Shown here: one piece after another, positions 44,631-53,728 of the stretch
Layout: each line of letters starts with the position of its first letter
How positions within the stretch are numbered: the stretch's first letter is position 1
Origin: Methylobacterium sp. CB376
GTDB lineage: Bacteria; Pseudomonadota; Alphaproteobacteria; Rhizobiales; Beijerinckiaceae
Direction: 5' to 3'
NCBI RefSeq assembly: GCF_029714205.1
Contig: NZ_CP121648.1
Coordinates: forward strand, 1,550,001-1,614,000
Length of the DNA: 64,000 nt
Position numbers and translations under genes: made by a program
Notes under the pieces: generated by a model
Database searches by the model: none
What the model was told of the DNA's origin: nothing
The model's input: only the letters and a program-made list of their open reading frames with translations

Positions 44631-45842
44631 CTACTTCGCGAGCGGGCAGCCGCCCTCGCTCATGGGCCGGAAGGCCTTGTCGCCCGGCACCGTCGCGAGG
44701 AGCTTGTAGTAGTCGTACGGCCCCTTCGACTCGGCGGGGGTCTTGACCTCGAACAGGAAGAGGTCGTGGACCGCCCGCCCGTCCTGCCGGATCGTGACCG
44801 GGCCGAAGAGCGGGTCGTCGATCGGCGTCTCGCGCAGGGCCGCCAGCACCTTCTCGCCCTCGACGGTGGCGGCGGCGCGCACGCCGCGCAGGTAGGCCAG
44901 CGTCGCCGAGTAGACCCCGGCGTGGTTCTCGGTCGGCATGCGGCCGTTCATGCGCTCGGCGAAGCGCTTGGCGAAGGCGCGGGTGCCGTCCGTGCGGTCC
45001 CAGTAGAAGGCGCTGGCGAATTGCAGGCCCTGGGCCGCCTTGAGGCCGAGCGCGTGGACGTCCGAGATCTGGATGAACAGGGCCGCAACCCGCATGTCGG
45101 GCATCAGGCCGAATTCCGCCGCCTGCTTGACCACGTTGATCATGTCGGCGCCGGTATTGGCGAGCGCCAGCACCTGTGCGCCCGAGCCCTGGGCGGCCAG
45201 CAGCGGCGAGGCGAAGTCGCCGGCATTGAGCGGGTGCTTGGTCGAGCCCTTGACGCTGCCGCCCATGCCCTTGAGGGCCGCCGTGGCGTCGCGCTCCAGC
45301 GCTTGGCCGAGGGCGTAATCGACCGTGAGGAAGTACCAGGACTTGAAGCCGCGCTCGGCGATGGCGCGCGCGGTGGCGGAGCCCTGCGCCCAGGTGTCGG
45401 AGACCCACTGCACGGTGGTCGGCGCGCAGGCCTTGCCGGTGAGGTCGGAGGTCATCGCGCTCGACGCCAGGGCGACGCGGTGGCGCTCGCGCATCAGGTT
45501 GGCGACGGCGAGCGCCACGGCGGAGTTCGGCAGGTCGACGATGGTCGAGACGCTCTCCTGGTCGAGCCACTTGCGGGCGATGGCAAGGCCGATATCGGGC
45601 TTGTTCTGGTGGTCGGCCGAGACGACCTCGACCCTGATGTCGGGGGTCTCCTTGGCGAAATCCTCGGCCGCGAGCTGGGCGGCGACGACCGAGCCGGTGC
45701 CGGCCTGATCCGCGAAGGGGCCGCTCATGTCGCTGAGCACGCCGACCTTCACGGGGGGAACCGCCTCCTGCGCGGCGGCCGAGACGGAGAGCAGGGCTGC
45801 GAAACCGGCCGCGAGGACCTGGCGCAACGAACGGGGCGACAT
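44631..45842 (-). CDS. periplasmic substrate-binding protein, branched-chain amino acid (LivK) type
   Basis: A 403-residue type I periplasmic binding protein with a signal peptide ending at about 25 (LLSVSAAAQEA). Hallmarks are VKVGVLSDMSGPFADQAGTG, VVSADHQNKPDIG, YFLTVDYALGQALERDA and NHAGVYSATLAYLRG. No permease or ATPase gene is beside it, so it must use a transporter encoded elsewhere or act as a sensor partner. The ATG at 45842 gives a normal signal peptide and was preferred to the one 14 codons earlier. Confidence 0.9.
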   Translation of the reverse strand: MSPRSLRQVLAAGFAALLSVSAAAQEAVPPVKVGVLSDMSGPFADQAGTGSVVAAQLAAEDFAKETPDIRVEVVSADHQNKPDIGLAIARKWLDQESVSTIVDLPNSAVALAVANLMRERHRVALASSAMTSDLTGKACAPTTVQWVSDTWAQGSATARAIAERGFKSWYFLTVDYALGQALERDATAALKGMGGSVKGSTKHPLNAGDFASPLLAAQGSGAQVLALANTGADMINVVKQAAEFGLMPDMRVAALFIQISDVHALGLKAAQGLQFASAFYWDRTDGTRAFAKRFAERMNGRMPTENHAGVYSATLAYLRGVRAAATVEGEKVLAALRETPIDDPLFGPVTIRQDGRAVHDLFLFEVKTPAESKGPYDYYKLLATVPGDKAFRPMSEGGCPLAK

Positions 45843-45987
45843 CGCGAAACTCCAGAGGCGGAACCGCGCGGGGCGGTGGTGCACCGTATGTCAGGATGGC
45901 GGGGCCGAGTCGATGGATGCGCGCGGTCGCGCGCCGATCCGGCCACCCCGCGCCGGGCCCGCGCGCCGGGGCGGCCCGCCGGCGCCG

Positions 45988-47382
45988 CTACGGGCTCCCT
46001 CTCCGGGTCGGCTCGGCGTTCGGCACCTTCGCCGGCTCGTCCGCGGCGCGTGGCTTCAGCCGGTCGACCAGTTCCCGCACCCTGAAATCCCCGACAGGCT
46101 GCAGAGCGGCGATGATCTCATTGAAATTTCCGCGAAGATTGTGCTTCGCGACAAGGTTCTTCGGGAGGTCGTTGCTGGCGATCAGGCCCTGCAAGGTCAG
46201 AAGCGATTTCTCGAGCGCGCCCACCACCGCACCGAAATCCTGCTGTGCCGGCGCGGCTTCCGTGCGGGAATCCGGCAGGTCCTGGCGGTCGCGCGGCGCG
46301 TCGGGAGGACCGAATTGCCGGGCGGCCGGATCCGCGCTCGATCGCAGGGGAGGGCTCCCCGAGGCCGGCCGGCCGGGGGAGGAGGTGAGGGCCGGCGGAG
46401 GCGACGACGCGATCCCCCACCACGACACGGCGCCCAGGCCGATCGCGCTCGCGCCCGCGAGGGCGAGCAGGCCGGCCTGATTGCGCCGGGTGGCGAGCCG
46501 CAGCGCGGCGTCGAGCGCGTCGATCCGCCTCTCCACGGCGCCGAACTGACGCTGCCAGGCCTGCTGCACCTCCGCGAGGCCGCTCGGCGCACGCCCGGCC
46601 TCCGCGCGCGGCGAGGGCAGGGCCTGCGGCGGGGGCAGCCTGGCGAGGTCCGGCGACGGGGCGGACGGGCTTCGCCAGCCGGACCAGATCGAGCCGCGCT
46701 CGCGCTCCTCGCCGGCGGCCCCGCGGGCGCGCGCGTCGAGGCGCGGTCCCGGTGCCCGGACGCCGCGCATGGCGGCGGCGTCGCGCGCGATCAGGACCTT
46801 GGCGTAGGGCTCGAAGAGGCCGTCCCGCTGGGCCCGCGTCAGCGCGTCGGGCAGCGCCGCGGAATCCGCCTCCCGCGAGAGGTCGATGACGGCGGGCGTG
46901 CCCAGGAGGGTGAAGGAGAGCCCCTGCCGTGGCCGGTTGCTCCGCTGCGCCCGCTCGGCGTCGTGGAGCTTGGAGACGTCGCCCTCGAGATCCTCCAGGC
47001 GCAACGCGCCCGTGTCCCTGATCAGCCCCGAGGACAGCAGGGACTCGATCCTGCCGATGATCGCTTCCAGCAGCGCGACCGCCTCGCCGCCGTCCAGGTG
47101 CGTCCCGAACAGCCAGAGGCCGCAGCCGAAATACCCGCCGGAACGCCCGACGACGCCCTGCGGCAGCGGCTTGTAGCAACCGATCCAGGTGGCCTCGATC
47201 TCCGGGTTGCGCCGGGCGACGACATAGTACCCGGCCGTGTCGTGACGCATGATCGCGTCGTCGTTCGACAGGACCATGATCGCCTGAAGCGCGTCGACGT
47301 GGTGGCTGACCTCACCTTTCACGTCGATGTAATGCGCCGAGAAGCCCCCGATCGTGTCGAACACCGCCACGGCAGCCAGCAT
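45988..47382 (-). CDS. cassette protein 3: N-domain, proline-rich linker, one membrane span
   Basis: A 464-residue protein I cannot place in a named family. An N-terminal domain (about 1-200) contains YYVVARRNPEIEATWIGCYK and VVGRSGGYFGCGLWLF. A Pro/Arg-rich linker follows (about 205-270), then a short coiled part, one membrane span at about 303-323, and a Pro-rich then helical C-terminus (DFGAVVGALEKSLLTLQGLI). The start follows the GTPase-like gene stop by 1 bp, so the two are translationally coupled. Topology suggests a membrane-tethered partner or effector of the NTPase. Confidence 0.7.
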   Translation of the reverse strand: MLAAVAVFDTIGGFSAHYIDVKGEVSHHVDALQAIMVLSNDDAIMRHDTAGYYVVARRNPEIEATWIGCYKPLPQGVVGRSGGYFGCGLWLFGTHLDGGEAVALLEAIIGRIESLLSSGLIRDTGALRLEDLEGDVSKLHDAERAQRSNRPRQGLSFTLLGTPAVIDLSREADSAALPDALTRAQRDGLFEPYAKVLIARDAAAMRGVRAPGPRLDARARGAAGEERERGSIWSGWRSPSAPSPDLARLPPPQALPSPRAEAGRAPSGLAEVQQAWQRQFGAVERRIDALDAALRLATRRNQAGLLALAGASAIGLGAVSWWGIASSPPPALTSSPGRPASGSPPLRSSADPAARQFGPPDAPRDRQDLPDSRTEAAPAQQDFGAVVGALEKSLLTLQGLIASNDLPKNLVAKHNLRGNFNEIIAALQPVGDFRVRELVDRLKPRAADEPAKVPNAEPTRRGSP

Positions 47383-47383
47383 G

Positions 47384-48499
47384 TCAGCGCTCTCGGAACA
47401 GCTTCGAGAAGACCGAGAGGATCATCACCCTCGTCAGCGTCTCGTAGGGCCCGGCCTCCTCGACCGGGCTCGGGACGACGTCCGCGTACAGGATCTCCCG
47501 CGCGCCGCCGCCATGCGGCAGAGCGGCCGTCGCGTTGCCGTAGAGCCAGTTCCACAGCGTCCGATTGAATCTCCTGAACACCGGCGCGTAGATCGGACTG
47601 TGGGTGATGCGCCGATCCGGCTGCACCCAGGCCGCGCTGTACGGCATCAGCGCCTTGGAATGCGCGGGAAACCCGGTCATCGCGGCGAATTTCGGCCAAG
47701 CGACCCGCCATCTCGCGATCCTGTCGAGCACGGTCGACGCCGTCGCGTCCGAGAAGCCGCTGCCGTTCACGCCCGGAGGGCAGCACGCGTCCCACTTCGA
47801 GATCAGGAGGAGCAGGTTGTCGCGGTTCTTGTTGCCCCGCAGCCGGTCGACCTGATGCATGGCGTTGCTCAGGCACTCGTGCGAGCTCGCGGCCGATTCC
47901 CCATCCGGCCCCGCGACCGTCGGAGCGACGAAGATGAGCGACATGCCGAGTTCGTAGTGCTGCAGGATCTCCTTGAGGAGGTTCCTGAATGGCAGGAAGG
48001 GCGGCATCCGCGAGGCGTCGGCGGCCTGGCCGGCCGCCGGTTTCTGCTGCTCGAACCATTCTCCCATGCCCTCCAGGAAGGCGAACTTCACAGTTCGTCT
48101 TTCGTGAACGATGTTGACCGGGATGAAGTACGGCGTTTCTCTCTGCGTCCGCGGCGCCGCGTAGCCTCGCCCGAAGGCCGCCACCTGGTTCTCGAAGAAG
48201 GCGCGCGCCGCCTCCTCGATGGGCGCGAAGTACCCGTGCCGACGCGGCCAGATCGGCGCCCTGAGCTGGACATCGACGACGGCGTCATCTGACGATTTGA
48301 TATAGTCGATCAGCGAGAGAAGCATCATGGTTTTCCCGGATGAATTCGTACCGAAAATCATGACCGGGTGAATGTCGTTGTTTCTCAGATGACTCATGAT
48401 CTCGCGAGCCAGCAGAGGCGACTCGAAATCCGCGTGCTCGATGTCGTCGTCGTCGAAAGCCTGATCGCTGGAGAAATTGTGCCCGTTCGCATCGTTCAT
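47384..48499 (-). CDS. cassette protein 2: GTPase-like P-loop protein
   Basis: A 371-residue soluble protein with a P-loop GTNSSGKT at about 50-57, a G3-like LEGMGE at about 142-147 (Glu in place of the usual Asp of DxxG) and a G4-like SKWD at about 234-237. This order is that of TRAFAC-class GTPases used in bacterial conflict and secretion-linked systems rather than of a AAA+ ATPase. The acidic N-terminus DDDDIEHADFES is distinctive. A GTG five codons upstream is an alternative start. It is the middle gene of three and is likely the motor or switch. Function unknown. Confidence 0.75.
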   Translation of the reverse strand: MNDANGHNFSSDQAFDDDDIEHADFESPLLAREIMSHLRNNDIHPVMIFGTNSSGKTMMLLSLIDYIKSSDDAVVDVQLRAPIWPRRHGYFAPIEEAARAFFENQVAAFGRGYAAPRTQRETPYFIPVNIVHERRTVKFAFLEGMGEWFEQQKPAAGQAADASRMPPFLPFRNLLKEILQHYELGMSLIFVAPTVAGPDGESAASSHECLSNAMHQVDRLRGNKNRDNLLLLISKWDACCPPGVNGSGFSDATASTVLDRIARWRVAWPKFAAMTGFPAHSKALMPYSAAWVQPDRRITHSPIYAPVFRRFNRTLWNWLYGNATAALPHGGGAREILYADVVPSPVEEAGPYETLTRVMILSVFSKLFRER

Positions 48500-48564
48500 A
48501 ATGCTGAGCCCCACTTTCCTTGACGTCTCGCCTTCCGGGACGAGGGCCGGCTCCGGTCGTCGCC

Positions 48565-49731
48565 TCAGCCCAACTCGATGGGAGACCAGATGTAGGTGAC
48601 GCCGCTTTCCCGGAGCGTGCGGTCCCTGTTCAGGCGCCGCCGCCTCGCCTCGCGCTCCCGATCCACCCGCACCGCGTTGACGACCAGGAACACCGCCAGG
48701 AAATCGATCGCGAATGGAACCATGATGTAGATGTAAGTCGTCGGCCTGTTCGATCGTTCGATCAAAACGTTAACGAGCTGCACCAGGGAGGTGACGGACT
48801 CGTAGGCATTGTTTGCGAGATAGCTTTTCAACTTGAATTTCTCAAGATTTGAAAAACCCGACAATTTGTTGTAAAGCTTGATGTACTCGGCATTCGCCTG
48901 AGTGATGGTCGGGACGATCGCTTCGAAGAGAGTTTGGTCAAAAAGGAAATTGTTAACGCCAATCAGCGCTTTCTCCTTCTCGTTGAGCCGCGCGACCTCC
49001 TGGTCGACGGTCAGCCTGATCTCGCGGCTCAGGGATGCCCTCTCGGCCATCTGTCGCGAGGGCTGCGCGAGGTACTCGCCGAGGGCCTTGTCGATCATGC
49101 TGCCGTAGGCCCTCGCCACCGCCTCGACCGTCGCGCGATCCTTGCAGTCGAGACCCCGTCCGGTTCCGGTGAGGATCTCGACGCCGGGCAGGACGGCCTT
49201 GATCCCGTCGATGGCCCTGCGCGCGCCCGGCCCGATCCCGCACGCGACGGGGTTCCTGATCTCGGTGTCGAGGTTCTTCGCGAGGCTTCTCACCCGCGAG
49301 GCGAGGGCGTCGACCTCGGGGCGTGCCAGGATCGTCGCCGATTCCGCCTGGATCCGAAGCAGGGCCTCCCGCGTGGTCGCGATGCTCTCGCGCAGGATCG
49401 TCGGCCCTTCCAGCAGGAGCATGCAGGCGGCCAACACCCCGTACCCGCTCGTGAGGACGAGGATCAGGAGGGACCCGCCCTTCAGGAGCCGTCGCCGCCA
49501 CGGGCTCGCCCCGGAGACCTCGACCAGGGCGCGCCCCGCGATCACCAAGAAGCCGTAGATCAGCAACGCGACGACGGCGACGATCCCTCTGATCTGCCAG
49601 ACCCCCCAATCCGGGTAGGAGGTTTTGAAGCTGAAATAATAGCCCTGACCAACATAAAACATGAATGCGACGATCAACGGCGGAAACAAGAAATAGATCA
49701 CTATCTTCCAAAAATGGAAAAATGGCGACAT
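48565..49731 (-). CDS. cassette protein 1: four-span membrane protein
   Basis: A 388-residue membrane protein. Spans lie at about residues 8-28, 47-67, 86-106 and 333-354, so a helical domain of about 225 residues lies between the third and fourth. A basic cytosolic tail EREARRRRLNRDRT follows. The start MSPFFHFW has a GGAG site 6 nt upstream, better than the ATG eleven codons earlier. Codon use is clearly less GC-biased than in flanking genes (many TTT, AAA, AAT and TTG codons), a sign of recent transfer. I do not recognise the family. It leads the three-gene operon. Confidence 0.75.
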   Translation of the reverse strand: MSPFFHFWKIVIYFLFPPLIVAFMFYVGQGYYFSFKTSYPDWGVWQIRGIVAVVALLIYGFLVIAGRALVEVSGASPWRRRLLKGGSLLILVLTSGYGVLAACMLLLEGPTILRESIATTREALLRIQAESATILARPEVDALASRVRSLAKNLDTEIRNPVACGIGPGARRAIDGIKAVLPGVEILTGTGRGLDCKDRATVEAVARAYGSMIDKALGEYLAQPSRQMAERASLSREIRLTVDQEVARLNEKEKALIGVNNFLFDQTLFEAIVPTITQANAEYIKLYNKLSGFSNLEKFKLKSYLANNAYESVTSLVQLVNVLIERSNRPTTYIYIMVPFAIDFLAVFLVVNAVRVDREREARRRRLNRDRTLRESGVTYIWSPIELG

Positions 49732-50234
49732 TGCTATCTCCGCAGATTCGAAGGCAGCATACATGTTAATGGAACCTTAACAAGTGATTTCTTGAAGAAT
49801 TTTCGACGACATCAATCGGACGACGCCTCGGCGCGCCACATCATCTCGTGCGTATTTGATGAACTTCGGTTCGAGCAATCATGGCCACCCGCGGCCGCAT
49901 CGATCATGCCGCAGAGACATCGACAGGATGTCGACGGCCCACTTATGCTGAAGGATTTCTAAGTTGAGCGTCGCTTCCGGCCCGGGCGCAGGCCGGTCCT
50001 CGTGGTTTTGCGGCATTGTCCGCCGCGCTCATCCGCATGTTTCCGCGAGGGCGCCGCGAAGCCCTCGCGCCCGCGGGCTTCCTTCCGCGGGAGGGAAGCC
50101 GTTCGGACCGCCCGGATTCAGCCCGCCCCCGCGCCGGGCCGCATCCGGCGCATCGTCAGGGGCGGGGCGCCCCGTCCGACATCCGGCCGATCATCCGGCG
50201 CCCGGGCCGCGCGCCGGGAGACCGGATCATACCA
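49732..50234. other. intergenic, upstream of the GTPase cassette
   Basis: About 500 bp. The part near the cassette (49740-49970) is AT-richer (TTAATGGAACCTTAACAAG, GATTTCTTGAAGAATTTTCG) and should carry the cassette promoter. The rest is GC-rich and holds no supported gene; a plus-strand frame there has the composition of a shadow. Confidence 0.4.
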
Positions 50235-50293
50235 AATCCGCTTGATCCCTTCGGGATGGCGGATTTGGGCTTCGCTCAGGCGCCGCGCAGGCT
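50235..50293 (+). repeat. palindromic interspersed repeat, copy C
   Basis: Begins AATCCGCTTGATCCCTTCGG, with GCGGATTTGGGCTTCGCTCA and GGCGCCGCGCAGGCT following, and so matches copies B1 and B2 over most of its length. The AGGCT end points toward the 3' end of msrB and is followed after 9 bp by a perfect hairpin. Confidence 0.85.
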
Positions 50294-50302
50294 CGCGATC
50301 CA

Positions 50303-50327
50303 GGATCCGCTTCGATCAAGCGGATCC
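50303..50327 (-). terminator. hairpin directly after msrB
   Basis: GGATCCGCTT (50303-50312) and AAGCGGATCC (50318-50327) form a perfect 10-bp stem with a 5-nt loop, beginning 4 bp after the msrB stop on the minus strand. No long T-run follows. It is coupled to repeat copy C, as a similar hairpin is to copy D. Confidence 0.75.
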
Positions 50328-50331
50328 CGTC

Positions 50332-53160: not shown

Positions 53161-53598
53161 TCAGGCGGAGAGGAGCGCCGCCTTGTCGACGCCGAGCGCC
53201 TCGGCGACCTCGTCCAGCACCTTGTGCTCCAGTTCGCTGATCCCGCCCTGATCGGCGACGTCGGCGGCGATCAGGAAGACGTCCTGGCGCTGGTCGAGGG
53301 GCCGGTCGGCGATGGCCGAGAGGAAGCGCAGGTTCTCGATCCGGCCGGCCCGGCTCTTCGCGCGGGCGATCGCCTCGTGCAGTTCCTGCTCCAGCTTCAG
53401 GACGCCGTAGGATTTCTGCAGGATCGGGTTGGCGGCGAGATTCGTGAGGGCGGTCTCGATCTCCTCCTCGTCGATCTCCCGGTCGGCCAGGATGACGTTG
53501 GCCGCGCCCGAAGCCGCCGCGTGCAGGAAGGCGGTATCGCCCGCATACGACATGACCACCCGGCCGATCCGGGTGAAAGCATCCTGAAACAGCCCCAT
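53161..53598 (-). CDS. TerB-domain protein
   Basis: A 145-residue helical cytosolic protein resembling the TerB (tellurite-resistance) fold: MGLFQDAFTRIG, ANVILADREIDEEEIETALT (metal-binding acidic loop), RFLSAIADRPLDQRQD and LDEVAEALGV. TerB domains are thought to sense or bind metal near the membrane. No other ter genes are nearby. A run of three regularly spaced palindromes lies 130-185 bp upstream. Confidence 0.8.
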   Translation of the reverse strand: MGLFQDAFTRIGRVVMSYAGDTAFLHAAASGAANVILADREIDEEEIETALTNLAANPILQKSYGVLKLEQELHEAIARAKSRAGRIENLRFLSAIADRPLDQRQDVFLIAADVADQGGISELEHKVLDEVAEALGVDKAALLSA

Positions 53599-53728
53599 CG
53601 TCTCATCCTCGGCGCGGCCATCGGCGGCGCGGGTCAACCCGCTTGTTCGCCAGCCTGCGCGAATCGATGCACAGCCTTGCGCGTACAGGCAAGCACATCC
53701 GCACCACAGCGGCGTGCCGAACGCACGC

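Follow-up and report, generated by a model that had tools for sequence, protein, structure and literature searches.

A Ras-like GTPase encoded between two putative membrane proteins: a rare three-gene cassette in Methylobacterium sp. CB376

Organization of the cassette

The window analyzed here, a stretch of 64,000 nucleotides from the 7.69 Mb genome of Methylobacterium sp. CB376, harbors a cassette of three minus-strand open reading frames (ORFs) arranged head to tail and designated P1, P2 and P3. P1 (49731..48565, 388 aa) is a four-span membrane protein according to its hydropathy, and an in-frame ATG at 49764 provides a possible longer start. P2 (48499..47384, 371 aa) is assigned to the Ras-like TRAFAC GTPases on its motifs, its profile and an AlphaFold2 model. 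P3 (47382..45988, 464 aa) combines a new N-terminal domain, recognized by an alignment motif, with one likely span. The genes are separated by 65 bp (P1-P2) and 1 bp (P2-P3); the single base at 47383 lies between the stop codon of P2 and the start codon of P3 (TGA C ATG), a spacing that suggests translational coupling. An initial annotation, made from the DNA letters alone, had described the same arrangement and gaps, a four-span, a soluble and a single-span product, and a GTPase core with membrane partners. Its description holds in all these points: hydropathy gives 4, 0 and 1 spans, that of P3 being marginal.

Profiles from which the window protein had been excluded, run against 485 six-frame pieces of the window, recover P1 (E 5.5e-32) and P2 (E 2.1e-112), so that these ORFs are not products of chance. 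Methylobacterium sp. WSM2598 is 99.4% identical across the 9.9 kb that hold the cassette. The two strains differ in 7, 8 and 6 codons of P1, P2 and P3, of which 2, 4 and 3 change the product; the four in P2 include the loss of the stop codon, which reads AGA in WSM2598, where the annotated P2 is 24 residues longer and overlaps P3 at its end.

Conservation and lateral spread

A search of genome contigs with P2 yielded five loci from 34 candidate stretches: WSM2598 and metagenome-assembled genomes (MAGs) of Methylotenera (L004), Methylococcales (L005), Legionellaceae (L006) and Methylococcaceae (L007). The order P1-P2-P3 on one strand occurs in all five, as judged with profiles that contain these or near-identical sequences, and in the window as in L004-L007 all three reading frames are uninterrupted. 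That the genes stay together answers the initial call for a check on whether homologues are neighbors. P1 is present once per genome in each of the four MAGs, within the cassette. Elsewhere, the P2 profile matches a gene of another alphaproteobacterial genome, G331 (L014:7494-8924, E 6.1e-27), whose product is a GTPase with N-terminal pentapeptide-like repeats (judged by eye); a profile search of 17 kb around this gene found no P1 or P3. The neighbors of this repeat-fused GTPase have no assigned family.

The cassette is rare. P2 was found in none of 98 relatives besides its own genome, and in the phylum 5 of 397 further genomes gave matches. Four of these five were weak (E 3.6e-4 to 7.8e-4), covered only 43-77 positions around the P-loop and are not counted as members of the P2 family. 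Among 201 genomes from the order to which L005 belongs, P1 is present in 2, and these were already known.

Base composition sets the genes apart from their surroundings. The total guanine plus cytosine (GC) content is 61.0% for P1, 63.6% for P2 and 72.7%, a normal value, for P3; at third codon positions the fractions are 0.835, 0.855 and 0.901, compared with 0.918-0.975 in nine neighboring genes. The proposal of a low-GC donor for the first gene therefore stands for P1 but not for P1 alone, since P2 is low by both measures. The cassettes of L007 (31.1% GC), L005 (30.9%) and L006 (35.7%) also deviate from their left and right flanks (58.0/54.5, 38.3/36.3 and 43.5/40.3, respectively).

Seven loci in congeners that carry an orthologue (82-84% identical) of the binding-protein gene downstream were inspected, with 14-15.5 kb of sequence each. 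At E<=1e-10, no match to P1, P2 or P3 occurs in any of them. In congener G038 (L073), about 210 bp separate msrB from the ABC-transporter binding-protein gene next to it, which forms the empty site; the other six loci gave no msrB match. The window stretch between the two blastn matches to G038 (45748..50312) contains, besides the cassette, intergenic DNA and the first part of the binding-protein gene. The deviating GC content in the window and L005-L007, the empty site in one of seven congener loci and the rarity together argue for a laterally spread module, in agreement with the foreign origin first proposed. At 50230-50331 the window also contains about 100 bp of DNA that looks, by eye, palindromic and like a dispersed repeat; WSM2598 lacks this element at the corresponding place, the 3' end of msrB.

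The GTPase P2

P2 carries the motifs G1 (residues 50-57, GTNSSGKT), G3 (143-147, ExxGE, within LEGMGEW), G4 (234-237, SKWD) and G5 (287-289, YSA), the last being an addition to the three originally recognized, followed by a family signature, TLWNWLYGN (314-322). No membrane span is predicted by hydropathy. Two protein searches gave 17 and 16 matches, in all 23 distinct proteins; the CB376 genome holds a single P2-type match even at E<=10. In an alignment of 26 rows, the G1 Lys, the G3 GEW and the G4 WD are invariant wherever a row has letters (23, 25 and 26 rows), with GE at G3 in 25 of 25.

The AlphaFold2 model of P2 has a predicted local distance difference test score (pLDDT) of 84.8. Compared with the PDB by Foldseek, it gives 33 matches at E<=1e-3, of which 32 are by title GTPases or GTPase-holding complexes (among them G-alpha, Ras, Rab, Rac, Arf, SR-beta, EF1A and YcjX); the remaining match, 3aq4_A, has no informative title. 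Three YcjX entries align over 251-252 residues, the other listed rows over 161-192, and the Ras-like fold shared with YcjX extends beyond the G-domain. Sequence matches of P2 in the PDB are P-loop stretches (best E 0.0079). In its predicted fold and motifs, P2 is a Ras-like GTPase.

By profile, P2 is also a distant relative of the DO-GTPases. Compared with four DO-GTPases of two genomes, all of which pass the Pfam cut-off for DO-GTPase1 or DO-GTPase2, the P2 profile gives P 3.7e-07 and a probability of 92.9 over 166 columns from G1 to G4 (P 3.4e-07 with a larger P2 alignment), in a comparison that has no profile-level control from another P-loop family. The window P2 reaches 16 bits with Pfam DO-GTPase2, below the cut-off of 27; 7 of 14 P2 family members match this model at E<=1 and one, P0024, exceeds the cut-off (32.9 bits). 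P2 has the fold and the conserved Walker B glutamate of the DO-GTPase family, the Glu of GE in G3 being, in our own reading, the residue meant by Kaur et al. (2020, PMC7159879).

The membrane proteins P1 and P3

The four spans of P1 lie at residues 10-28, 47-65, 88-106 and 336-354 (threshold, mean hydropathy 1.6). Four spans are likewise found in L004-L006, and in L007 the fourth is below threshold (1.31). The loop between spans 3 and 4 has about 228 residues in the window and about 210-230 across the window and L004-L007, and it contains a cysteine pair (Cys164/Cys196 in the window) in all five proteins. The C-terminal tail is basic in all five and carries Ser/Thr-Pro-Trp in the four MAG copies, where the window protein has Trp-Ser-Pro. 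Lysines and arginines are more numerous in loop 2-3 than in loop 1-2 in three of the four proteins whose spans were correctly picked, with a tie in L007; in L005 the automatic picker misplaced spans 2 and 3, which the hydropathy listing gives correctly. By the positive-inside rule, this distribution fits a topology with the N-terminus inside, the large loop outside (periplasmic) and the C-terminus inside.

P3, a fast-diverging protein, has a single likely span at 303-321 with a marginal mean hydropathy of 1.61, followed by a proline-rich and then a short C-terminal region. Its length varies from 414 to 546 aa, and the pattern W-x(3)-Y ... Y-x-G-x-G-x-W-L of the N-terminal domain is invariant in a 5-row alignment. 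In the leave-one-out search the right ORF ranks first of 485, with E 0.59 for the whole length and 0.092 for the N-terminal 200 residues, the latter equivalent to about 2e-4 for that single ORF. Outside Methylobacterium, the homology of P3 therefore depends mostly on its position and the motif, and less on the score. The C-terminal tail of P3 in L007 looks LysM-like by eye and has no Pfam match at E<=1.

Pfam, NCBIfam and PADLOC contain no recognized family for P1 or P3 of the window (for P3, none at E<=1), and the matches of the MAG proteins are all below cut-off, coiled-coil-like or due to chance. In the PDB, the sequences matched by P1 (gp41 constructs, designed coiled coils and keratin being the best) and by P3 (mostly haemagglutinin HA2) appear to reflect nothing more than coiled-coil likeness. 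A resemblance of P1 to DUF4407 proteins found no support, as none of the five P1 proteins matches this family at E<=10; in 61 relatives, DUF4407 itself gives sub-cut-off matches alone, in 8 genomes.

Neighboring genes

Seven neighbors in the window encode a periplasmic binding protein, an aldo/keto reductase, MsrB (SelR), BrkB, an NAD-binding dehydrogenase, a TerB-domain protein and a kinase. The TerB-domain gene (53161-53637, minus strand; 26.1 bits, cut-off 24.4) is situated 3.4 kb upstream of the cassette. Its presence here and that of TerD beside the L005 copy are probably a coincidence.

Neighbors of a defense type occur at one of the four MAG copies, L005 (L005:5827-16894; L104:13689-15211), which is accompanied by a PemK toxin, TerD, a LeoBC-like protein, a WYL regulator and a PD-(D/E)XK protein, with HipA and a small helix-turn-helix-like neighbor further on. 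By eye, core-type genes flank this stretch, which resembles a small accessory island. At another copy, the gene adjoining the cassette (L006:4548-5933) encodes an AspBHI-type N-terminal domain and a transglutaminase domain; PADLOC lists this protein, by its N-terminal domain, as a methyl-directed restriction enzyme. The PADLOC scan covered ten neighboring proteins of L004-L006 and none of L007, and these neighborhoods have no control set. In L004, an SNase homologue lies 1.5 kb upstream, and a small protein with no assigned family is encoded directly downstream. Two L007 neighbors were compared with family models, one giving no match and the other DUF5658.

Proposed function and alternative explanations

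We read the cassette as a horizontally spread, membrane-anchored GTPase switch, most likely used in conflict or envelope surveillance (for instance against phage), and give this reading a probability of roughly 0.45. The suggested use in surveillance or anti-phage activity rests on analogy with two cases, the DO-GTPase/GAP1 systems and the YcjX encoded in psp operons. In favor of the reading stand the fold and DO-GTPase kinship of P2, the conserved gene order, the rarity and signs of lateral spread, and the neighbors of the L005 copy. Topology, gene order and the GTPase fold are consistent with a mechanism in which P1 senses, P2 switches and P3 acts. The P1 loop, predicted to be periplasmic, would sense envelope damage or a ligand and pass the signal to the cytosolic C-terminal tail, where P2 would dock and change its nucleotide state. 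GTP-bound P2 may then engage the N-terminal domain of P3, the product of the gene directly downstream, which would serve as an effector or adaptor at the membrane. Such a layout of sensor, switch and output would be structurally distinct among GTPase-centered conflict or envelope-stress systems. Because the unit measures only about 3.7 kb and cassette-free congeners exist naturally, its function is directly testable.

It is conceivable, if on balance doubtful, that the cassette represents a surveillance system of a new, laterally mobile class. Here a four-span sensor, whose periplasmic domain bears the cysteine pair, would signal through a cytosolic Ras-like GTPase to a fast-evolving membrane effector. 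This would be a bacterial parallel to receptor/small-GTPase/effector signaling, built from a DO-GTPase/YcjX-type core and two undescribed partners.

Several observations weigh against the surveillance switch. For P2, the first residue of G3 is Glu instead of Asp in 24 of 25 rows with letters, so that GTP hydrolysis is putative only, and the Foldseek template-modeling scores are modest (0.24-0.39 by query length). A single-sequence hhalign control, from which 11 further ORFs had been removed beforehand as family members or tested relatives, scored 13 sequences including six controls and did not separate the relatives from other P-loop proteins: the top score (46.0 over 38 columns) went to an ABC-transporter ATPase encoded in the window, and three of the four DO-GTPases ranked below five of the six controls. 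As this control failed, the DO-GTPase relationship rests on the profile comparison, its span from G1 to G4 and the fold. For P3, a second hydrophobic stretch, in the N-terminal domain, is above threshold in two of five proteins (L004, L005); the charge pattern fits an N-in orientation in three, is tied in one and reversed in one; homology between the Methylobacterium and MAG proteins is weak; and the structure model (pLDDT 34.4) is too poor for a fold comparison with GAP1. No recognized effector domain occurs in P1, P2 or P3, and of the three proteins only P2 has PADLOC matches, all three of them weak and located around the P-loop (best E 0.0062). Neighbors of L004 and L007 are not defense-like in appearance, and the cassette of L004 (34.8% GC) does not deviate from its flanks (36.4/33.5). 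Searches of mobile replicons gave no match for P2 in plasmids, phages and viral contigs, for P1 in plasmids and viral contigs, or for P3 in viral contigs.

The alternative that survives best, while still rather unlikely, is an accessory module of envelope stress or membrane maintenance like YcjX-YcjF, directed neither at phage nor at competitors, with P2 as the switch, P1 as its membrane partner and P3 as a scaffold. YcjX is the solved structure that aligns with P2 over the greatest length, and a psp study (PMC11237479) places a DO-GTPase-family protein in psp operons, citing the YcjX structure. A YcjX gene is followed by one for a protein with at least two spans in 9 of 29 fetched loci, all with short flanks. 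However, the CB376 genome already has a separate YcjX (G000:C1:6812871-6814220), P2 has no DUF463 (YcjX) match at E<=1, and its profile compares poorly with 29 YcjX proteins (P 0.0017, probability 15.5, 112 columns). P1 was also rejected as a relative of YcjF: its likeness to YcjF-like neighbors (ten sequences, one an 827-aa ORF that is probably spurious) is limited to 56 columns (P 0.028). Moreover, a patchy, GC-deviant distribution is unusual for maintenance genes.

A further explanation, which seems quite improbable, regards the cassette as a divergent DO-GTPase/GAP1 system whose P3 is a GAP1 protein diverged past the reach of sequence methods. The kinship of P2 with DO-GTPases speaks for it, as do the C-terminal spans that GAP1 proteins may carry, according to PMC7159879, and the position of a DO-GTPase1 gene directly upstream of GAP1 in two systems of known type (L027, L028), as P2 is of P3. 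These two (L027:3662-10520, L028:5532-12156) are proteobacterial GAP1-N1 systems composed of GASH, DO-GTPase2, DO-GTPase1 and GAP1-N1, with calcineurin-like (with GAAD) and phosphorylase (with EAD1) effectors. The Pfam scan that finds GAP1-N1 (115.7 and 70.5 bits) and GASH in them detects no GAP1 family at E<=1 in the five P3 proteins, and no GASH or FNIII family in P1-P3 of the window, the five P1 proteins or the four MAG P3 proteins. In hhalign comparisons P3 does not match the two GAP1 sequences used (P 0.34 and 0.43), nor does GASH match P1 (P 0.55) or P3 (P 0.76), and P3, with 414-546 aa, is short beside the 837 and 875 aa of these two GAP1 proteins. No GAP1-M family member was found when 150 genomes of the phylum were searched.

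That the genes are mere cargo or the remains of a decaying unit and no longer function together, as the lost P2 stop codon of WSM2598 (24 added residues overlapping P3) and the high divergence of P3 might indicate, is very improbable given three intact frames in the window and L004-L007, the P2 G1 Lys, GEW and WD kept in every row with letters, and a gene order conserved across classes.

Comparison with known systems

The triplet corresponds to no characterized locus found through Pfam, NCBIfam or PADLOC, as first supposed. A known defense system was likewise rejected: for P1-P3 of the window, Pfam and NCBIfam give nothing above curated cut-offs and PADLOC nothing beyond P-loop matches. No published account of the triplet was found in open-license PubMed Central texts, supplements excluded, so that a listing in a supplement is possible.

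Small Ras/Rab/Arf, Rag/Gtr and other eukaryotic-type GTPases share 10-15% identity with P2, which differs from them by extra N- and C-terminal segments and by its place in a bacterial operon with membrane partners. The GTPase of G331 resembles P2 by profile but differs in its fused N-terminal repeat region and in the absence of P1 and P3 nearby. With YcjX, P2 shares a Ras-like fold that extends over about 250 residues, the GEW of G3 and a frequent location beside a membrane-protein gene; unlike the YcjX/YcjF pair, the cassette lacks a DUF463 match, belongs to a genome with a separate YcjX, has a P1 that is YcjF-like over 56 columns only and includes a P3 with no identified counterpart.

DO-GTPases paired with GAP1, often with membrane components, are described as predicted conflict systems by Kaur et al. 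(2020, eLife, PMC7159879). Membership in these systems, to which the initial annotation had pointed, holds for the kinship of P2 but not for the system as a whole: GAP1 and GASH are undetectable, and the cassette is therefore not filed as a DO-GTPase/GAP1 system. It further differs in having no zinc-ribbon match, a single GTPase in place of two, a partner with four spans and a large loop, a P2 whose G3 begins with Glu instead of Asp, and the WNWLYGN signature. Paired GTPases occur in 38% of the DO-GTPase/GAP1 systems, so that pairing is not strictly defining. Like these systems, the cassette contains a TRAFAC GTPase with a glutamate after the G3 glycine (GE), encoded directly upstream of the third component, and membrane partners are frequent in both. 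By this analogy, the cassette is best described as a variant that may work in the manner of DO-GTPase/GAP1 systems.

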